Made by a program: the position numbers and the translations under genes. From Paramacrobiotus metropolitanus (lineage: Eukaryota > Tardigrada > Eutardigrada > Parachela > Macrobiotidae), in the NCBI RefSeq assembly GCF_019649055.1, contig NW_026570260.1:124001-188000 (forward strand): a stretch of DNA of 64,000 nucleotides, written 5' to 3'. Positions 4,141 through 49,762 of this stretch are shown here, in pieces (positions within the stretch are counted from its first letter, which is position 1; the number at the start of each line of letters is the position of its first letter). The notes beneath the pieces are model-generated. The model had not been told where the DNA came from and did not search any database. It was given only the letters and a program-made list of their open reading frames with translations.

Positions 4141-4224
4141 ATACTTAAGTACTCGTACTCTTACATCGAGCTTTCTATCACGCTACTACAACTACAACTG
4201 ACGCGCTAACAACTGTACTGTAAG

Positions 4225-6023
4225 ATGACAAGATCGGTGCGGTGTTTATTTTCTATATTTCCGCGTGCGCAACACACAGCAGCTTCGAGTCCCGCAATGG
4301 CTCAATCCAAGGAACTAGACCATTATAAACTGATCTTCAACGACGTCAAAACCCGTCCATATAACCAAGACCTGGGTTGCCCAAAATCGAGCGTTCTAAA
4401 CGATCATCTCAAAGACCGTTTATCTGGTTCCTTGGTCGGTTTAGCTGTCGGCGATGCCGTGGGCGCCTACTTCGAATTCAAATCCGCGGAATTCGTGCGC
4501 CGGAATGCACCAATTGGTATGCGCTCAGGTGGAACATGGAGTCTAGACGCTGGTCAGTGGACGGATGATACATCGATGGCATTATGTCTGGCTGCTAGTC
4601 TACTGATGACGGGAGAGTGTGATCCCTATGATCAGACGATGCGTTATCTGGCCTGGTACGAACGCAGTTATTTGTCGTCCAAAGAAGGGGACGGACCGGC
4701 GTTTGATATTGGTATCGGCACCAGGGGCACATTGGATAAATTTTCCATGTGGCAGAGTGATCTTGTATGCAAACTAATTAAAAATAATTCAGAAAGAATT
4801 GAGGCGAAGTATAAGTTCGAAGGAAGTGTTTACGATGCGGTGAGAAAGGAATTCCCATCGGCGGGAAATTTTGCGCATGCCACAACAGGTGGGGTACAAA
4901 TACTCAGATACTGTAAAATTTAATAATCGCTGTTGTACTCGAGCAGTGATGATTGGTGATTGTTCAATTGGTTTTTGATGGTATTTTCGATACCGCAGAG
5001 TTGCAAACTTATTTGGTACTACGTGGCTTTTTACTGGCGCTCCCAGGCTGACTAATCTGTAGCGGTAATGCGTGATAAGAAGTTCTAGTCGACAGGAAAA
5101 GTTAAATATGGCAGCTTTTTTCGCGACCATTTGAAGGGGGGTTCGCGTTTCAGATATTACCCGTAGATTTTATACTAAGCAAATCAAAAACTCGATAAGG
5201 ACTTAAGTACCTCCACAAATATTTATATTATATTAGGTATGACATTTCGGTTGAGGTTTGAGGTTTAATGAAATTGGGCGCAAACGAAACAAAATGTTAC
5301 AAAGAATTTGCGAAGGTACAGTAATTTTGACAGGTTATACAAAGATTATGGTTCTAACTAAAACAAATAAACGAAGTCACCCTACTTAACACGGTGCCGC
5401 ACGAACAAGCACTTGTCGAAGTTACTTCTAGCTGGTTTTCATGCTGCAGGTGGAAATGGTTCGTTAATGCGTTTGGCTCCCATTCCCGTGTTCTTTCACT
5501 CAGATACCCAGGCGGCCATCACATCGGCCGAGGTCAGCTCGATCACAACGCATCGCGCCGGTTTTGCTATCGACGCGTGCAAATTCTACGCGGCACTGAT
5601 CTGTGAGGCATTCAGACCCGGTGCGACGAAAGCTGTCCTGCTAGACAGTGGTTTTCGTGATAAATTCCCCGGGCTACGTAATCTGGACCGACAGATTGTC
5701 GAAATTGCTGAAGGGTCGTATAAAACGCCGGTCAACGCTCCGCCACACGATATAGTGGGTAACTCCAATGGCGCAGCTTCCAAAGCGCTGAAGGCAGCAC
5801 TGTGGGCGATCTACAACGATGAGGATAGCTTTAAACGTGGCGTGGAACTGGCGGTGGGATTAGGTGGCGATACGGATACGGTGGCCGCCATTTATGGGCA
5901 ACTAGCGGGGCGTTATACGGACATACAGATACAGGAATCCCCAAAGAATGGCGTGACAAACTGTACAAGCACGATTTTATACGAGATCTTGCGCTGCATC
6001 TTGGTGAACGACATGCTCAGTAA
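4225..6023 (+). CDS. ADP-ribosylglycohydrolase (DraG/ARH family), copy 1, with a late frame break
   Basis: Enzymes of this family remove ADP-ribose from proteins or small molecules using a two-metal centre. Exons are 4225-4888 and 5450-6023, the intron splitting a Gly codon. Diagnostic blocks are GSLVGLAVGDAVGAYFEF (residues about 70-87), WTDDTSMALCLAASLL (metal ligands in TDDT), HRAGFAIDACKFYAALICEA and [16 protein letters not shown] (second metal site). The N-terminus MTRSVRCLFSIFPRAQHTAA is basic and could be an organelle presequence; a second Met lies at 4297. After QLAG the frame breaks at about 5906-5911 (GCGGGGCG). The +1 frame continues as LYGHTD...[15 protein letters not shown] to a stop at 6021-6023, matching copy 2, whereas the uncorrected frame runs into unrelated sequence to 6105. 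One missing G, real or an assembly error, explains this. Corrected length is about 412 residues. Confidence 0.88.
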
Positions 6024-7470
6024 TGATAACGATTATTTTTGTACTGATTTTACTAGCAGATTTTTTTATGATAATGATAACTTACATGATTTTGGTGTTA
6101 CATAATTTTTGGTTCGAAGGTGCTTCTGCGAATGTTTTTTGCCAAGGATTTCATAGATATGCGTTTAGCACGACTGCATGTCCTGTTTCTCAGCGGTTGG
6201 AGACTGTTTGGTCGGCACATTTTACCCAGACTGGTTTGCGAGTGATTTGCAGGATTGCTGCTGCATGCAATGTCAGCGGATATAAACAAAATTAATTGTT
6301 TGACGCACGAAACAGTAACCGTTTCATCCGATTCGAGGTGTACCAATCGAGAAAAGACACCTGTGTCTGTTTGTCATCGCATTTGTTACACATTTAAAAA
6401 ATGAATCATTTTAAAAATCTCAGCACAAATTTCCTCATTTTAAAATTGTACGGGTTGTAGAACCTCGGACTGATGTCACGGAAAAAGTGTTTCTGAATAC
6501 ATGTAGAATTGTAGATGAAGCGCAGCGCTGCAAAGGGGAAGGATGTGTTTTTGCATTTTTTAGCAAAGAATTATATTTTATTGTGTTGGTCAAACTAAAT
6601 TCTTAGTCAGTTAAGGTATGTAGGTAGCGGCGTTCTTGTAAAAAATGTTAACTCGGCCTCAGAGGATGTCGATCCACGTCGGAAAATTTTGTGTCGGTTA
6701 ACAGGAAACCGTCTTCGAACGGTCGGTGTAACCAATTCGAAGATCCGATGAATTCAGGTACCTGTACAACAAGAAACTGTGAGTGTTCCGAGGATTATTT
6801 TTGTAATCTATGTATTAGTAAAGTCTGCAGAAAATAATCTTTTAGAAATTACGACAAATGACAAACTCATAGATCATCTGCCCGCATGGGTCGGTTTAAA
6901 TACGAGTATAATCAAAATATATCGTCATATCCCTGATCCGGAGAACGGCGTAACGGAGCCTCCGGCAAGGCACGGACCGGCTGATGTCACATCCGCCGTT
7001 GAAGTCGCGCGCCCGTTTGACTGGTTTCCTTACCACCCCACAATCAGGCTTGTTTTTTTTGTGTAGTTGCATTTGACTGTCTTGTGCTTTCTGGCAGGTT
7101 GAAGGCAGTAAACGATGAGGTATGAGGATAATAATCAAAATTTCTACTTGTTGTCGGTAGTGTACAGTGCATCGTTTGGAAAAATCGGAAGTACTTGCAT
7201 TTTACGTCGCCATCCGCATTCGGTTTTAAACAAAAGTGTACAGCAATAGCGAAAATGTGCAAAAAGTGCGTGTACTTCCTCGTGTAATACTGTCAAAGCT
7301 CTCGAACTACAACAAACTCCACTGATATTCAGGAGGGTTGCGTCGAGCAAGAGACTGAGAAAAAGGTATTTTGTCCATGTGCTTGAGTACAATGGGCCGG
7401 CAGAGTTCATCGGTGAAATCATCCCTTCGTCAGGCGACTCAGGCGACTGTTCATAGCCTTGACTACTGCT
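6024..7470. other. Intergenic region between the two ADP-ribosylglycohydrolase copies
   Basis: AT-rich sequence of about 1.4 kb holding the 3' end of copy 1 and the presumed promoter of copy 2. The open frames on both strands (for example 6779-7066 and 7144-7560 on the other strand) show no domain and no splice-linked partners. I see no further feature. Confidence 0.45.
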
Positions 7471-36861: not shown

Positions 36862-40845
<3,984 letters not shown>

Positions 40846-43111: not shown

Positions 43112-44527
43112 TCAGACCTGCCAATTGCTAAAGGCGTTCCCACCTCTAACTGATTTAAGCAGTGACGCCGAAGTGTGCAGCCGGCGCGCAGGCTGTCCCG
43201 GTGCCGGCTTGCGTTGGCCGCCATCAATGGGACCCAGGTCGGTGTCAAAGCCTTTCTGACCTTTTCCATCGCGTCTATCATCACCAGTGCGCTCGCGCTC
43301 AGTGCCCTTGAGTCCGCTCGCACTGTCCGGGCTGACGCAACCGCCGCCCTGGGCCTTGGAAGGAAGGGGATCGCCGCCCGTTTTGGGCTGCGGTGTGTCA
43401 ATGGGTGGTTTGTGGGTGATCGCCCCGTCGTTGATTAAAGCGTCATGACCTGTTGCCCCATCAATCTGCATTCCCGCACCACACACTACACAGGTAACGA
43501 CCCACTCACCTGCACCCATTGCGGAGCCTTTGCTGCCCTTGCCCGACGGCGTGGTGGTCGAATGCGCCGCCGAGGTGGAGAAGCGGCGCTTGCCTTTATC
43601 GTCGCCGACCAACGGACCGGACTTGCTGGACAACGCCTCGTCCAGGTACTTGTCGTCCTGTTCGCGGCCGGTCCGACTGGGATTATGTCGTTTGCTGTCG
43701 TAGCCATCACCGCTCTTATCCTGAGCAGAGCCACCAGACTGTCGGGGATTCTGATTATTCTGCTTCTGCTGGCCGAGTCCCAGTTGCTGCTCCAGCCGGC
43801 TGCCGGGCTTTTCAGGGTAGAATTCCAGCATCTCCACCGTACCCTTGTCGATGCTCGGCTCTGGATCGACATTCTTCTTTGACTGCTCGGAGACAAAGCC
43901 CTCCTTATCGTCTTTTTTTGCACCGGAAGTGGATGCGGCAGGTTTGCGTGAATCTGCAAACATATTATCTCATGACCATAGTTGTAGCCAACAGCAATAT
44001 TATCACAACCAAGTCTATACAATTAACAGAATTAACTCCTAAACTGATCTAACCGAGGCGGCCGCGTGACAGGGTATTGAATACGCGATCGGCATTAATC
44101 TCTAATGATTAATTTGGCAATAAGCCATAAAGCATGCTGTGTATAAGACGGCCCCTTGGTATTGACACTCACCCTGTGCGTAAACGGACCAGCCCGTGAG
44201 GAACGTTCGTTTCTGCTGGTAGTTGGTGTTGGGCGCCTGTTGTTTGGCCGCCGCCCCCTTCAGCGTTTCCTCCTTGCCCCCTCGGTTGTCCTTGCCCACG
44301 GCCCCTGGCCCCGTGCTGCCCACCGTAGACTGGGCGGTCGCCTCGCTCTTTTTTGGGCTTCCGGGATTCGGTTTGGCGCCTGCGCCTTCCTTGCTTTTTG
44401 GATCCGCTTTCGCTTGTGCGTCGGTCTTCTTGGCCGCATAGAAGGCCCGGCCGTATTGCGACGGAAGAACCCCGTAATACGACTTTGGCGTTCGCGCCAC
44501 CAACTGCGCCAATCTGCAGCTCATCAT
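43112..44527 (-). CDS. Hydrophilic disordered protein with a mitochondrial-type N-terminus and repeated presequence-like motifs; unknown family
   Basis: I do not recognise the family. Exons on the minus strand are 44527-44173, 43953-43510 and 43449-43112 (378 residues). The 60-base intron 43509-43450 is open and in frame, so a 398-residue form is also possible. The N-terminus MMSCRLAQLVARTPKSYYGV is basic and lacks acids, typical of a mitochondrial presequence. The rest is Lys/Asp/Ser/Gly/Gln/Pro-rich and almost free of hydrophobic runs (for example KADPKSKEGAGAKPNPGSPK), so probably intrinsically disordered. Four Arg-containing cleavage-like motifs recur along the chain: GRAFYAAKK, KRTFLTGWS, KRRFSTSAAHS and ARRLHTSASLLKS. 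The last exon reads NWQV to a stop at 43112; an AG-GT site just before the stop (NWQ, then GT) leaves open a further exon that I could not find. It is divergent from the LEA-like gene at 46050, which also starts with a presequence. Confidence 0.7.
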
Positions 44528-46049: not shown

Positions 46050-48858
46050 ATGATGTCAACCCGTGCGATAACTTCGATTTTACTGCGTGGCAGCCAGATG
46101 ACCGGCGCGCGCGCTTTCGCCGGCCAGTCAGTGTTGTACAAGGACAAGGATTCGTGGAGCAAAACGAAGGATGCGGCGGAAGATCTAGCAGACAAGGCCA
46201 AGTCGACCGGCAAACAGAAGTGGGAGGAATTCAAGGACGAGTCGAAGGGACAGTCGCTAAGCGGCAAAGTGGAGACAGCCAAGCAGAAGTTGGGCGAGGC
46301 CAAGGATGAGCTGTCGCAAAACTTCAACAAGGATTCCTCTTCCTCCTCATGGAACAAGGACGCTAACAAGGACAAGGACCAGTGGAATAAGAACAAGGAC
46401 GCGGACAGTAGCAGCAGCAGTCAGTGGAACAAGAGCAAGGATGCCACCGGTAGTAGCTCTAATCAGTGGGACAGCGACTACCTGAAGAAGAATAACGACC
46501 CCGCAAACAAGCAGCAATGGAACAACTCTTCGTACGGCGGTGGCCGATACGGCCAGGATTTCCCCAGTCAGACGTCGCGTTCATCCGGCCAGCAGCAGCA
46601 GGACGATTTTAAGGATGCGCAGGCGCAGAAGATCGATCAATGGCAGATGGAAGCGGTGGAAGGTGACCGCAAGTGGCAAAATCGGCAGAGCAGCGGTAAG
46701 TTCCGATGTGGTAGTAATGTGCCGTATTCGTATAATTTTTTGTAAATGTTGCAGCTATTTACGGCATATGAAACTTGTGCATTCCATTCTTTTTTAATTT
46801 TAACTTGCCGGTATTTTCTGTACTTTTCCTTACACTTTTCCCGTAAGTTTCAGTCCAAAAGATCGGTCGGGCCTTTTCTCCTGTTGCTCCCGTTATGTGA
46901 TTTTTTAATACCTAACGCTGGGTTGTTTAAATAATTATTAAAACCCATCTTTATAAAATTTGAAGGAATATCGCGAAATGGCTTGCTGAAATCAGGGCAA
47001 AGTGCGGTTATCTTTGGTGCGGGAAAATCCCAAGCGCGTATGATAAGTTGTTTGGGCCAGCTGTTTAGTAGCAGCCTTGCCGGCAGCTACCGTGTGCGGG
47101 CGGAAACGACCGCTGTCGCGATCCGATAGTCATGAATCATTACAAGGGGGTGTGTCCTCTTGTCTACCACTGGTCTACTGCAGCGTGTTTGAAAACATCG
47201 ATCTCATAGGATAGAAAGTTTGAAAACGGAAAATGGGTTTTATAGCACAACATTCTTCGATATTCCTGGAAAGTTTCCAAGAATATGTGTCATTCTTGTT
47301 GACCATGTGTAAATTTTTTGTCAGACTCTTCACGGAACACTTGGGATAGCGCCTCCCCTGATCAGTACCGGCAATCAGGCTTCCCCAGCTCCTATGGATA
47401 CCAGTCCTCTGGTTCTGGATCCGGCTCCTATTCCGGCTTTCAAGACACCCGTCGCGATGCCGACCGCAACTGGCGCCGCTTCGAGGATAACCAGAACGAC
47501 CTGAGCGGACAGTATCGCAACCGCGGTGACTTGGACCGGGATAGCAGCAACCGCTACGGTCAAGCGTACTCCCAGGACCAGCAGTACGGACAACAACAAG
47601 GACGCTACGGCAGTGGTCAGCAGTCGTCATGGGGCCAACAACAGTACCAGCCGCAATCGTACAGCTCGGTAAGTTTCTTTTCTTTGTGCCGTGTCGCTTG
47701 AGACCAAGACAGTCGCTGCTGCAGTCTCAGCAGAGTTGGTTCGATCCATACTATCCCCGCTTCGCGTATTCCCAGGGTCGCGGAGGAAGTTTCCAGCAGT
47801 ACGGCGGACATGGCCATGAACCATACTCGGGCAGCCAACAGAGCCAGTATGGCGGTGGATGGGGTAACCAGGGATATGCACCGTCGCGGGGCGCCGGTTA
47901 CGGTTCATCCAGCGGTCAGCAGTGGGAAGGACGCAATCAGTTCGATCAGTGGCGTGGACAGACGCCTAGCTATGGATCTGGATACGGTCAGCAAGAATCC
48001 AGCCAACAGTCCAGTTATTCGCCTTATGGTTCTGGACATCGCTGGGACTCCTCCTCGGATTATAGCCGCGGGGGCCAGGATTGGCGCGGACAGTCCGCCA
48101 ATCGATCGGGTTACGGGCAGGAATCGAGCCAACAGTCCACCTATTCACCATATGGTCAGGGTCACAAATGGGATTCATCGTCGGATTACGGACGCCAGAA
48201 TCAATATGATTCTGGTTACCAAAGTATGTCTCGTTTGTGGAAGGTGTTGAGCTTCCGTAATAAAGTTATTTTTAAATGCAAGATTGAAATACCGGTTTTC
48301 AGGTGAATTTCGAGATAATTTCGATTGTTTTTCTTACTCAATAGGTGGGCAATACGATAACCAGAGCCGATGGTCTGGCCGCGACAACCAGGGCTCGTAC
48401 GGCTTGCAGGGACAGCAGCGCTACGGCCAGGGTCAGGGATCGTGGGCTCAGTCTTATGGAGCCGGTAAGTATAATTCCTCTCGCTTTAGCCTCTGCTCTG
48501 TATCTGACCCACGGATTCTCCGTTGACAGGTGGATCTGACCGCGCCCAGCAGCAGTACTCGCGCTCGCAGGGCCCCTACGGCGGCTCTTCGTGGCAAGAG
48601 GGACGCGATGCACAGGGCTCCTTCAATCAGTCCAACGCCTCCGACTGGAACCAGAACCGCCGTGGTGTAGACCAACGTCGCGACGGGGACAAGAATCAGC
48701 AGCAGCAAGAGAACCAAGATGCCGGCTTGGTGGATAAGGTGAAAGATGCGGCGCACAATGTAGTGGAAAAAGTGGAGGGGATGGCCTCATCGGCGTGGGA
48801 GAAGATCAGCGGCAGTGGATCGGCTGATAACCAGTTCAAGGATCGCAAGCCGTTGTAA
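46050..48858 (+). CDS. Mitochondrial group 3 LEA-like protein with a Ser/Tyr/Gly/Gln-rich central region
   Basis: Probably a desiccation-protective, heat-soluble protein of the mitochondrial matrix (inferred). Exons are 46050-46695, 47325-47668, 47725-48223, 48345-48464 and 48530-48858, giving 645 residues with closing phases. Residues 1-30 (MMSTRAITSILLRGSQMTGA then RAFAG) form a basic, Ser/Thr-rich presequence with an RAFAG cleavage-like site. Residues about 33-95 resemble group 3 LEA repeats: charged, Ala/Lys/Glu-rich amphipathic segments such as KTKDAAEDLADKAKSTGKQK and KVETAKQKLGEAKDELSQNF. A Lys/Asp/Asn/Trp-rich stretch follows. Then about 380 residues rich in Gly, Gln, Ser, Tyr, Arg and Trp form loose repeats (SQQSSYSPYGSGHRWDSSSD, then SQQSTYSPYGQGHKWDSSSD), similar in composition to prion-like domains. 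The end returns to LEA-like helix (LVDKVKDAAHNVVEKVEGMA). An AATAAA is at 49181-49186. The family call rests on composition and motif, not alignment. Confidence 0.78.
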
Positions 48859-49762
48859 AACACTGCCGAATCAGGATGGGGATTTCTTTTGATTTTTTTA
48901 ACACGTAGTGCTACTTTTATGTTGGCGGATATTTCGCCTGGCCGCGAGGCCGGTTAGCCGAGCGTGTGCTTCTCATTAGTTGCATTGATTGATTTGATTC
49001 CTCTGTTTTTCTGCGGCATCGACAGGTTAACGATGTTGTATTAATTTACTGAACATTGGTTGTACAGGTGTCTTAAGTGAACAGATCATCATTAAAACGC
49101 ATACGTTGATTGTGTGTGATAAATTTTGTCTTCGGGTACGAGTACTCCAGGACGAACTACATAAACACATTTGCACGAGAAATAAATAATGCTTCAGTGC
49201 AGTCGCCCTCCCGTCAGGACTCTAGAAACTTACAAGGATCTTGTCACAATCGGTAACAGCAGAAGAGCAAAAGTCAGGTACTTTTGCCTGCATCCGATTT
49301 TTGAATCATCGTTTTTCGCGCTATGCTTAACATTTTCTAACAGTTCCGGTTGCCGTCTACCGATTACGACGATTAATACATTAGCACTCGTTAATACCGG
49401 CCCATTACCCGGTACGGAGTCTACGGACTGATTGATGGAGTGACAAGTTACAACTCGGTAGTCGGAAGGCAAGGCGGGCGGCTACGATGACTCACAGGCA
49501 CGCATAACACTGTGTGCTGTTGAAAGCGCACCGGAAATAAGTACGTACAAGCGCATTGCAATTGTTGTGTTTGAAATTTGCGGTGATTCCTGCCTCCTTG
49601 TTTCCTACTGTTTGATCCAATTCCAGGCCGATCCCGCAGCATCGAATTATTTGGAAAGTGTATTTCCAGTCAGCTGATTAATTCTGTTGAATAAGTTGCG
49701 AGAATCGAAACTGAGGTGTCGTCAACACTTACCGTTTGACATCAGCCGTCATCCCTTGATCC
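48859..49762. other. 3' region of the LEA-like gene and upstream region of the acyltransferase
   Basis: The stretch holds the LEA-like 3' untranslated region with AATAAA at 49181-49186, then presumed promoter sequence of the acyltransferase. No supported coding region lies here. Confidence 0.5.

Follow-up and report, generated by a model that had tools for sequence, protein, structure and literature searches.

Our analysis of a plus-strand gene at positions 46050-48858 of a 64-kb stretch of the Paramacrobiotus metropolitanus genome (64,000 nucleotides, contig C40:124001-188000, referred to as the window) suggests that its 645-residue product may be a matrix-targeted protectant with triblock architecture, in which helix-forming ends would bind membranes or proteins and the middle part would condense reversibly as water leaves; we assign this reading a probability of about one half. 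The gene model, the composition, the 11-residue motifs and the spacing of the aromatic residues, all taken directly from the sequence, make such a triblock plausible, and from them we infer import, helix folding, condensation, binding and protection. The gene would presumably also be induced by drying. P. metropolitanus (formerly Paramacrobiotus sp. TYO) is described in the available part of PMC8277472 as a desiccation-tolerant tardigrade. Seven matches to trehalose synthase (PF00982) lie on three contigs of the genome searched here, consistent with the three TPS-TPP genes given for that species (PMC8277472). An insect origin, which the compact introns had suggested, was rejected: the trehalose-synthase matches fit P. 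metropolitanus, and no insect odorant-binding protein was matched, the latter being a weak test because its controls also gave no match.

The earlier note on this DNA had arrived at a condensate- or gel-forming matrix protectant. The single gene, the presequence-like start, the LEA-like 11-mers at both ends, the evenly spaced aromatic residues and a genome that fits an anhydrobiotic tardigrade support that reading, whereas membership in the LEA_4 family is not supported. Its further view that the arrangement is not a described family stands in part: because descriptions exist both of mitochondrial LEA proteins (RvLEAM, HeLEA1) and of desiccation proteins that condense (CAHS and other T-DRYPs), only the combination is new.

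Gene structure and putative targeting signal

Five exons join in a single frame of 645 codons whose stop codon ends at 48858, and the four intervening introns are all of the GT-AG type (Table 1), in agreement with the single gene that had been placed here before. Three of the four donors read GTAAGT, and the GC content is 0.55-0.63 in the exons vs 0.33-0.50 in the introns. Alternative in-frame starts of exon 3, at 47731 or 47734, would yield 643 or 642 residues. Since residues 201-620 are devoid of Met, exons 2-4 cannot constitute a separate ATG-started gene. It is extremely improbable that exon 1 (with a 231-residue product if intron 1 is read through) is transcribed separately from exons 2-5: intron 1 is indeed long (629 nt), and exon 1 remains open for 16 codons beyond residue 215 up to a stop at 46743-46745, but such an error of the gene model would have to accommodate (i) the lack of an in-frame Met in exons 2-4, (ii) a GTAAGT donor together with a TTTTTTGTCAG acceptor, (iii) four introns that all keep the frame and have a lower GC content, and (iv) motifs containing Trp that flank intron 1 on both sides.

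Table 1. Features of the 645-residue gene in window coordinates
Feature	Position	Strand	Residues and remarks
Exon 1	46050..46695	+	1-215; presequence-like 1-30, LEA-like segment 31-95, WNK-rich linker
Putative mitochondrial presequence	46050..46139	+	1-30; R-3-type motif RAF↓AG, residues 21-25
N-terminal LEA-like amphipathic segment	46140..46334	+	31-95; 11-mers at 40 and 78
Linker	46335..46695	+	96-215; recurring (Q/S)WNK-type motifs
Intron 1	46696..47324	+	629 nt, GT-AG
Exon 2	47325..47668	+	216-330; SYGQ/W-rich domain begins
Intron 2	47669..47724	+	56 nt, GT-AG
Exon 3	47725..48223	+	331-496; densest SYGQ part, both repeat copies
Intron 3	48224..48344	+	121 nt, GT-AG
Exon 4	48345..48464	+	497-536; SYGQ domain goes on
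Intron 4	48465..48529	+	65 nt, GT-AG
Exon 5	48530..48858	+	537-645 and stop; SYGQ end, Q/D/N-rich stretch, C-terminal LEA-like segment
AATAAA, possible polyadenylation signal	49181..49186	+	323 nt 3' of the stop codon

The predicted protein (72 kDa) is strongly hydrophilic (GRAVY -1.63), contains no Cys, and is rich in Ser (16.9%), Gln (14.6%) and Gly (12.7%), with 6.2% Tyr and 3.7% Trp. Neither Asp nor Glu occurs among its first 30 residues, three of which are Arg. The N-terminus also has an R-x-F-A motif and no more than a short stretch of hydrophobic residues (AITSILL), and RAFAG at residues 21-25 follows a pattern which we take to be like that of an R-3 processing site. All three presequence criteria are combined by just four of 248 M-started stretches (minimum length 80 residues; drawn from the window and eight loci, with overlapping starts), this gene being among the four. 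The presequence of the earlier note is thus supported by sequence features (no Asp/Glu within 30 residues, three Arg, R-x-F-A) and not by the helical moment, which for residues 1-25 is no higher than in shuffled sequences (maximum, p 0.42; mean, p 0.35). Proteins rich in Gly, Tyr, Ser and Gln are common in extracellular structures, and the product might instead be a secreted structural protein (of cuticle, egg shell or adhesive) or a cytosolic or nuclear prion-like protein. We consider this quite improbable: the targeting is what we infer, and the N-terminal helical moment is non-significant, but the absence of Asp/Glu, the three Arg, the R-x-F-A motif and the short hydrophobic run are in our judgement more in keeping with a presequence than with a signal peptide.

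LEA-like ends and the SYGQ-rich middle

Between the putative presequence and the C-terminus, the protein matches the 11-residue pattern of LEA proteins four times, at residues 40 (KDAAEDLADKA), 78 (KQKLGEAKDEL), 604 (VDKVKDAAHNV) and 608 (KDAAHNVVEKV), when at least seven of nine constrained positions are required to match; the mean for shuffled sequences is 0.05, and none of 1000 shuffles reaches four. The last two overlap and form the only overlapping pair, and there is no contiguous run. When the same test was applied to a LEA_4-like ORF at C29:231000-233500 (L003), three 11-mers were found vs a shuffle mean of 0.20, and one exon of a LEA_4-like gene at C29:548000-553500 (L004) yielded 12 vs 1.48. 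The mean helical moment exceeds that of shuffled sequences in both end segments (N-terminal, p 0.021; C-terminal, p 0.023), but the single best helical window is non-significant for the N-terminal segment (p 0.116) and reaches no better than p 0.049 for the C-terminal one. A Pfam search with the whole protein returned no family at E<=1, LEA_4 (PF02987) included, and a LEA_4 profile search of the genome (169,799,020 bases in 533 contigs) listed two other places and not this gene; for these two reasons the protein cannot be counted as a member of the LEA_4 family. Hence, the check by LEA_4 HMM which the earlier note had proposed turned out negative, and of its group-3-LEA-like ends the 11-mers remain. 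By this measure the protein is LEA-like, though short of group-3 LEA membership. The gene at C29:548000-553500 (L004, L011) has several exons and consists of long LEA_4-like repeats, and the one at C29:231000-233500 (L003) is short and LEA_4-like; both are without evident presequence and lie below the Pfam LEA_4 cut-off.

The two ends enclose a distinct linker (residues 96-235) rich in Ser, Gln, Asp, Asn, Lys and Trp, in which a (Q/S)WNK-type motif recurs over residues 96-160, followed by a region (residues 236-560) of which 66% is Ser, Tyr, Gly or Gln and which contains 35 Tyr (11%), 12 Trp, 25 Arg and a single Lys. When all six frames of the 64-kb window were scanned in stop-free segments of 100 residues at steps of 5, an S+Y+G+Q content of at least 55% was observed in 27 of 1285 segments, every one of which overlaps exon 2 or 3 of this gene. 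The SYGQ stretch of the earlier note is thus real and unusual in the window, but its dense part comprises about 325 residues (236-560) rather than about 380. Over the same 325 residues the composition is of low complexity and polar with interspersed aromatics, as is required of a prion-like domain.

The repeats claimed for the middle part are likewise present, in that SQQSSYSPYGSG is followed, 42 residues further on, by a single near copy reading SQQSTYSPYGQG. The two copies, both encoded by exon 3, share the consensus ESSQQS(S/T)YSPYG(S/Q)GH(R/K)WDSSSDY; over 25 codons each they exhibit four amino-acid differences, and silent differences in nine of the 21 codons for the same residue. The corresponding NG86 estimates over the 25 codons are dN 0.14, which is biased low because the stretch was picked for its similarity, and dS 2.38, which is near saturation. 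This suggests an old duplication that may have been retained at the protein level.

Even spacing of aromatic residues characterises those prion-like domains which condense rather than aggregate. In this protein, the 68 Trp, Tyr and Phe residues over residues 96-560 are evenly spaced (coefficient of variation, CV, of the gaps 0.51 vs 0.90 for random placement, with none of 5000 random placements being as even), in a range which, like the others used here, was chosen by eye and within a single protein. The evenness survives removal of one repeat copy (CV 0.52; 0 of 5000) and is absent over 96-560 for the five control residue classes, that is, Lys/Arg, Asp/Glu, Ser, Gln and Gly. Considered singly, Trp is evenly spaced over residues 31-645 (CV 0.51; 0 of 2000); Tyr is evenly spaced over 236-560 (p 0.0055) and not over wider ranges (CV 0.95; p above 0.6). 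Taken together, Trp, Tyr and Phe are not even over 31-645 (CV 0.84; p 0.24), because both ends are poor in aromatic residues. In our reading, the spacing over 96-560 is the sticker-and-spacer grammar of condensing prion-like domains. The feature is absent from the earlier note and new here.

These data bear on two further alternatives. Hydrophilins are defined by more than 6% Gly and strong hydrophilicity, and the protein, with 12.7% Gly and a GRAVY of -1.63, qualifies as one. Together with its LEA-like ends, these values would also suit a plain mitochondrial LEA-like hydrophilin, whose SYGQ region would serve as a disordered spacer or as a hydration buffer, with the whole protein acting as a molecular shield that forms no condensate. 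The available text of PMC10808001 likewise gives HeLEA1 a membrane role and not one in condensation, and that of PMC12143556 discusses RvLEAM in the same way. We nonetheless regard a plain hydrophilin as unlikely, since mere filler needs no even aromatics over 96-560 next to unpatterned Lys/Arg, Asp/Glu, Ser, Gln and Gly, and a Trp content of 3.7% would be unusual for a shield. Domains rich in SYGQ and Arg resemble those of RNA-binding proteins, and the protein might therefore be a scaffold with a housekeeping role in a mitochondrial condensate (a nucleoid or an RNA granule) unrelated to drying. Such condensates, RNA granules and nucleoids among them, do exist according to the part of PMC12428049 at hand; a scaffold of this kind is, however, very unlikely, as the whole protein is without a Pfam domain at E<=1, nucleic-acid-binding ones included, and LEA-like ends would not be expected there.

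Relatives, known protectants and genomic surroundings

When the protein's own genome was searched for paralogues with N-terminal, middle and C-terminal queries, solely the 645-residue gene itself was found. Candidate relatives from other sources were rejected: (i) single exons matched Pfam families weakly (exon 1, apolipoprotein at 0.025 and DUF2849 at 0.084; exon 5, two families at 0.13); (ii) four pieces yielded three NCBIfam matches at 0.11-0.33, none near the cut-off; (iii) four PDB chains were returned, which belong to apolipoprotein A-I in three cases (E 0.21 to 2) and to BefA in one (2.6); and (iv) one of 42 pattern matches in bacterial contigs passed, a 22-residue stretch at 55% which we take to be due to chance. 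The apolipoprotein-type and other weak matches we read as a probable sign of shared amphipathic texture and not of homology. A lipocalin match (L007), considered as a possible SAHS protein, lies in an ORF that looks like a fatty-acid-binding protein.

Comparison with known systems places the parts of the protein in different company. The SYGQ prion-like domains of the FUS/EWS type have a nearly S/Y/G/Q composition with evenly spaced aromatics, and the middle part shares both properties with them. Unlike FUS and EWS, the 645-residue protein has no RNA-binding domain that Pfam would find, combines Trp with Tyr, and has LEA-like ends and a probable mitochondrial presequence. AfrLEA6 of Artemia, from another LEA group and not known to be mitochondrial, is reportedly a LEA protein that phase separates. 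RvLEAM of Ramazzottius varieornatus, a mitochondrial LEA protein whose location was shown by GFP fusion, has six predicted helices and nine 11-mers, of which three contiguous regions account for seven, according to the accessible text of PMC4326354. Like the 645-residue protein, it comes from a tardigrade, is hydrophilic, and has LEA-like 11-mers and a presequence (putative in the 645-residue protein); unlike it, RvLEAM has no SYGQ/W domain that this portion of its description would mention (PMC4326354).

HeLEA1 of Hypsibius exemplaris, which reaches the matrix in yeast and binds lipid resembling that of the inner membrane (PMC10808001, in part), resembles the 645-residue protein in its mitochondrial targeting signal (putative in the latter), its disorder (predicted in the latter) and its weak amphipathic elements. 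It differs in its size of about 238 residues (38 plus 200) and in LEA motifs along its length, and the same portion of the text mentions no aromatic low-complexity core. MAHS, also a hydrophilic tardigrade protein with a predicted amphipathic helix, is mitochondrial, as is proposed for the 645-residue protein, but is without a LEA-like motif (both in the available text of PMC4326354). The termini of RvLEAM (MFLARN...QAGGRR) and MAHS (MSRYLLR...GVAVKNEGV), as translated from the cloning primers in the accessible part of PMC12143556, match neither those of the 645-residue protein (MMSTRA...DRKPL) nor those of its minus-strand neighbour. This comparison speaks against simple orthology with RvLEAM or MAHS, as weak evidence only, because termini can diverge. 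Three eutardigrades are each reported to have a single RvLEAM and a single MAHS (PMC6652013, in part).

CAHS proteins and other T-DRYPs resemble our proposal for the 645-residue protein in that they are disordered tardigrade proteins that condense or gel reversibly under dehydration-like stress; the 336 proteins of R. varieornatus that condense reversibly are enriched in CAHS and LEA proteins. CAHS proteins are, in contrast, cytoplasmic, and the SYGQ/W grammar is absent from what was available of their description (all PMC9592077). Among the matches listed in searches of open-access PMC (e.g., the best 20 of 312), no title or start of an abstract describes a protein of the present kind, and neither do the available portions of PMC10799326, PMC11654893, PMC13389832, PMC11191345 and PMC13006486.

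Upstream of the gene, between 44527 and 46050 (1.5 kb), there are no near-matches to heat-shock elements, and the entire window contains 12 vs 18.7 expected from shuffles. At the far side of this interval, 1.5 kb off, a head-to-head neighbour on the minus strand (44527 to about 43017) has a start that likewise resembles a mitochondrial precursor (MMSCRLAQLVARTPKSYYGVLPSQYGRAFYAAKK). It encodes a hydrophilic basic protein, of 411 residues when modelled without a second intron (the frame is lost upon splicing at 43509), and no Pfam family matches its main ORF. Paralogy of the two genes was rejected, the alignment of their N-termini being no better than for shuffles (p 0.56) and the upstream DNA yielding only short, weak matches (best E-value 0.31). 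The neighbour contains three internal R-x-F sites like those at which presequences are cleaved (RAFY, RTFL, RRFS) vs 0.16 in shuffles (p 0.0002), five vs 1.16 for a wider motif (p 0.0034), the choice of motif having followed inspection of the sites, and also RRLHTSAS; on an uncertain gene model, it could be a mitochondrial polyprotein that is cut into hydrophilic peptides. Elsewhere in the window, two adjacent plus-strand ORFs at 4210-6105 resemble an ADP-ribosylglycohydrolase, and minus-strand ORFs with WW repeats and a HECT-like domain (38192-39812) resemble what we take to be a ubiquitin ligase of the Nedd4/Su(dx) type.

Proposed mechanism and significance

In the triblock model, a cleavable presequence, with RAF↓AGQS as the likely processing site, would direct the intrinsically disordered protein to the matrix, where it would be soluble and its LEA-like ends disordered as long as the matrix is hydrated. 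Upon loss of water, the ends would fold into weak amphipathic helices on anionic lipid of the inner membrane or on client proteins. The middle part, with its Ser, Tyr, Gly and Gln, evenly spaced Trp, Tyr and Phe, and scattered Arg, would then act as a sticker-and-spacer chain that associates reversibly as the matrix becomes concentrated. The resulting condensate or soft gel would link the membrane- or protein-bound ends and be anchored to the inner membrane, and rehydration would dissolve it.

A bolder form of this proposal, which we put forward with considerable doubt, is that the protein might be the founding member of a class of mitochondrial gel-formers, triblock proteins in which a prion-like core with evenly spaced Tyr/Trp stickers cross-links LEA-like, membrane-binding ends. 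The matrix of drying tardigrade mitochondria would then gel reversibly and keep cristae and enzymes in position, as a counterpart of the cytoplasmic CAHS gels with a different sequence grammar.

One of the current ideas on how tardigrades survive drying is that CAHS proteins gel the cytoplasm (PMC9592077, in part). On the mitochondrial side, the available texts treat the known proteins as membrane stabilisers, with HeLEA1 having been studied (PMC10808001) and RvLEAM and MAHS discussed (PMC12143556) in that role. If the triblock reading is true, the question whether the mitochondrial matrix itself gels would become directly testable, and one natural protein would combine two principles of design, that of the LEA helix and that of the aromatic sticker. 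Such a protein might then serve to stabilise organelles.
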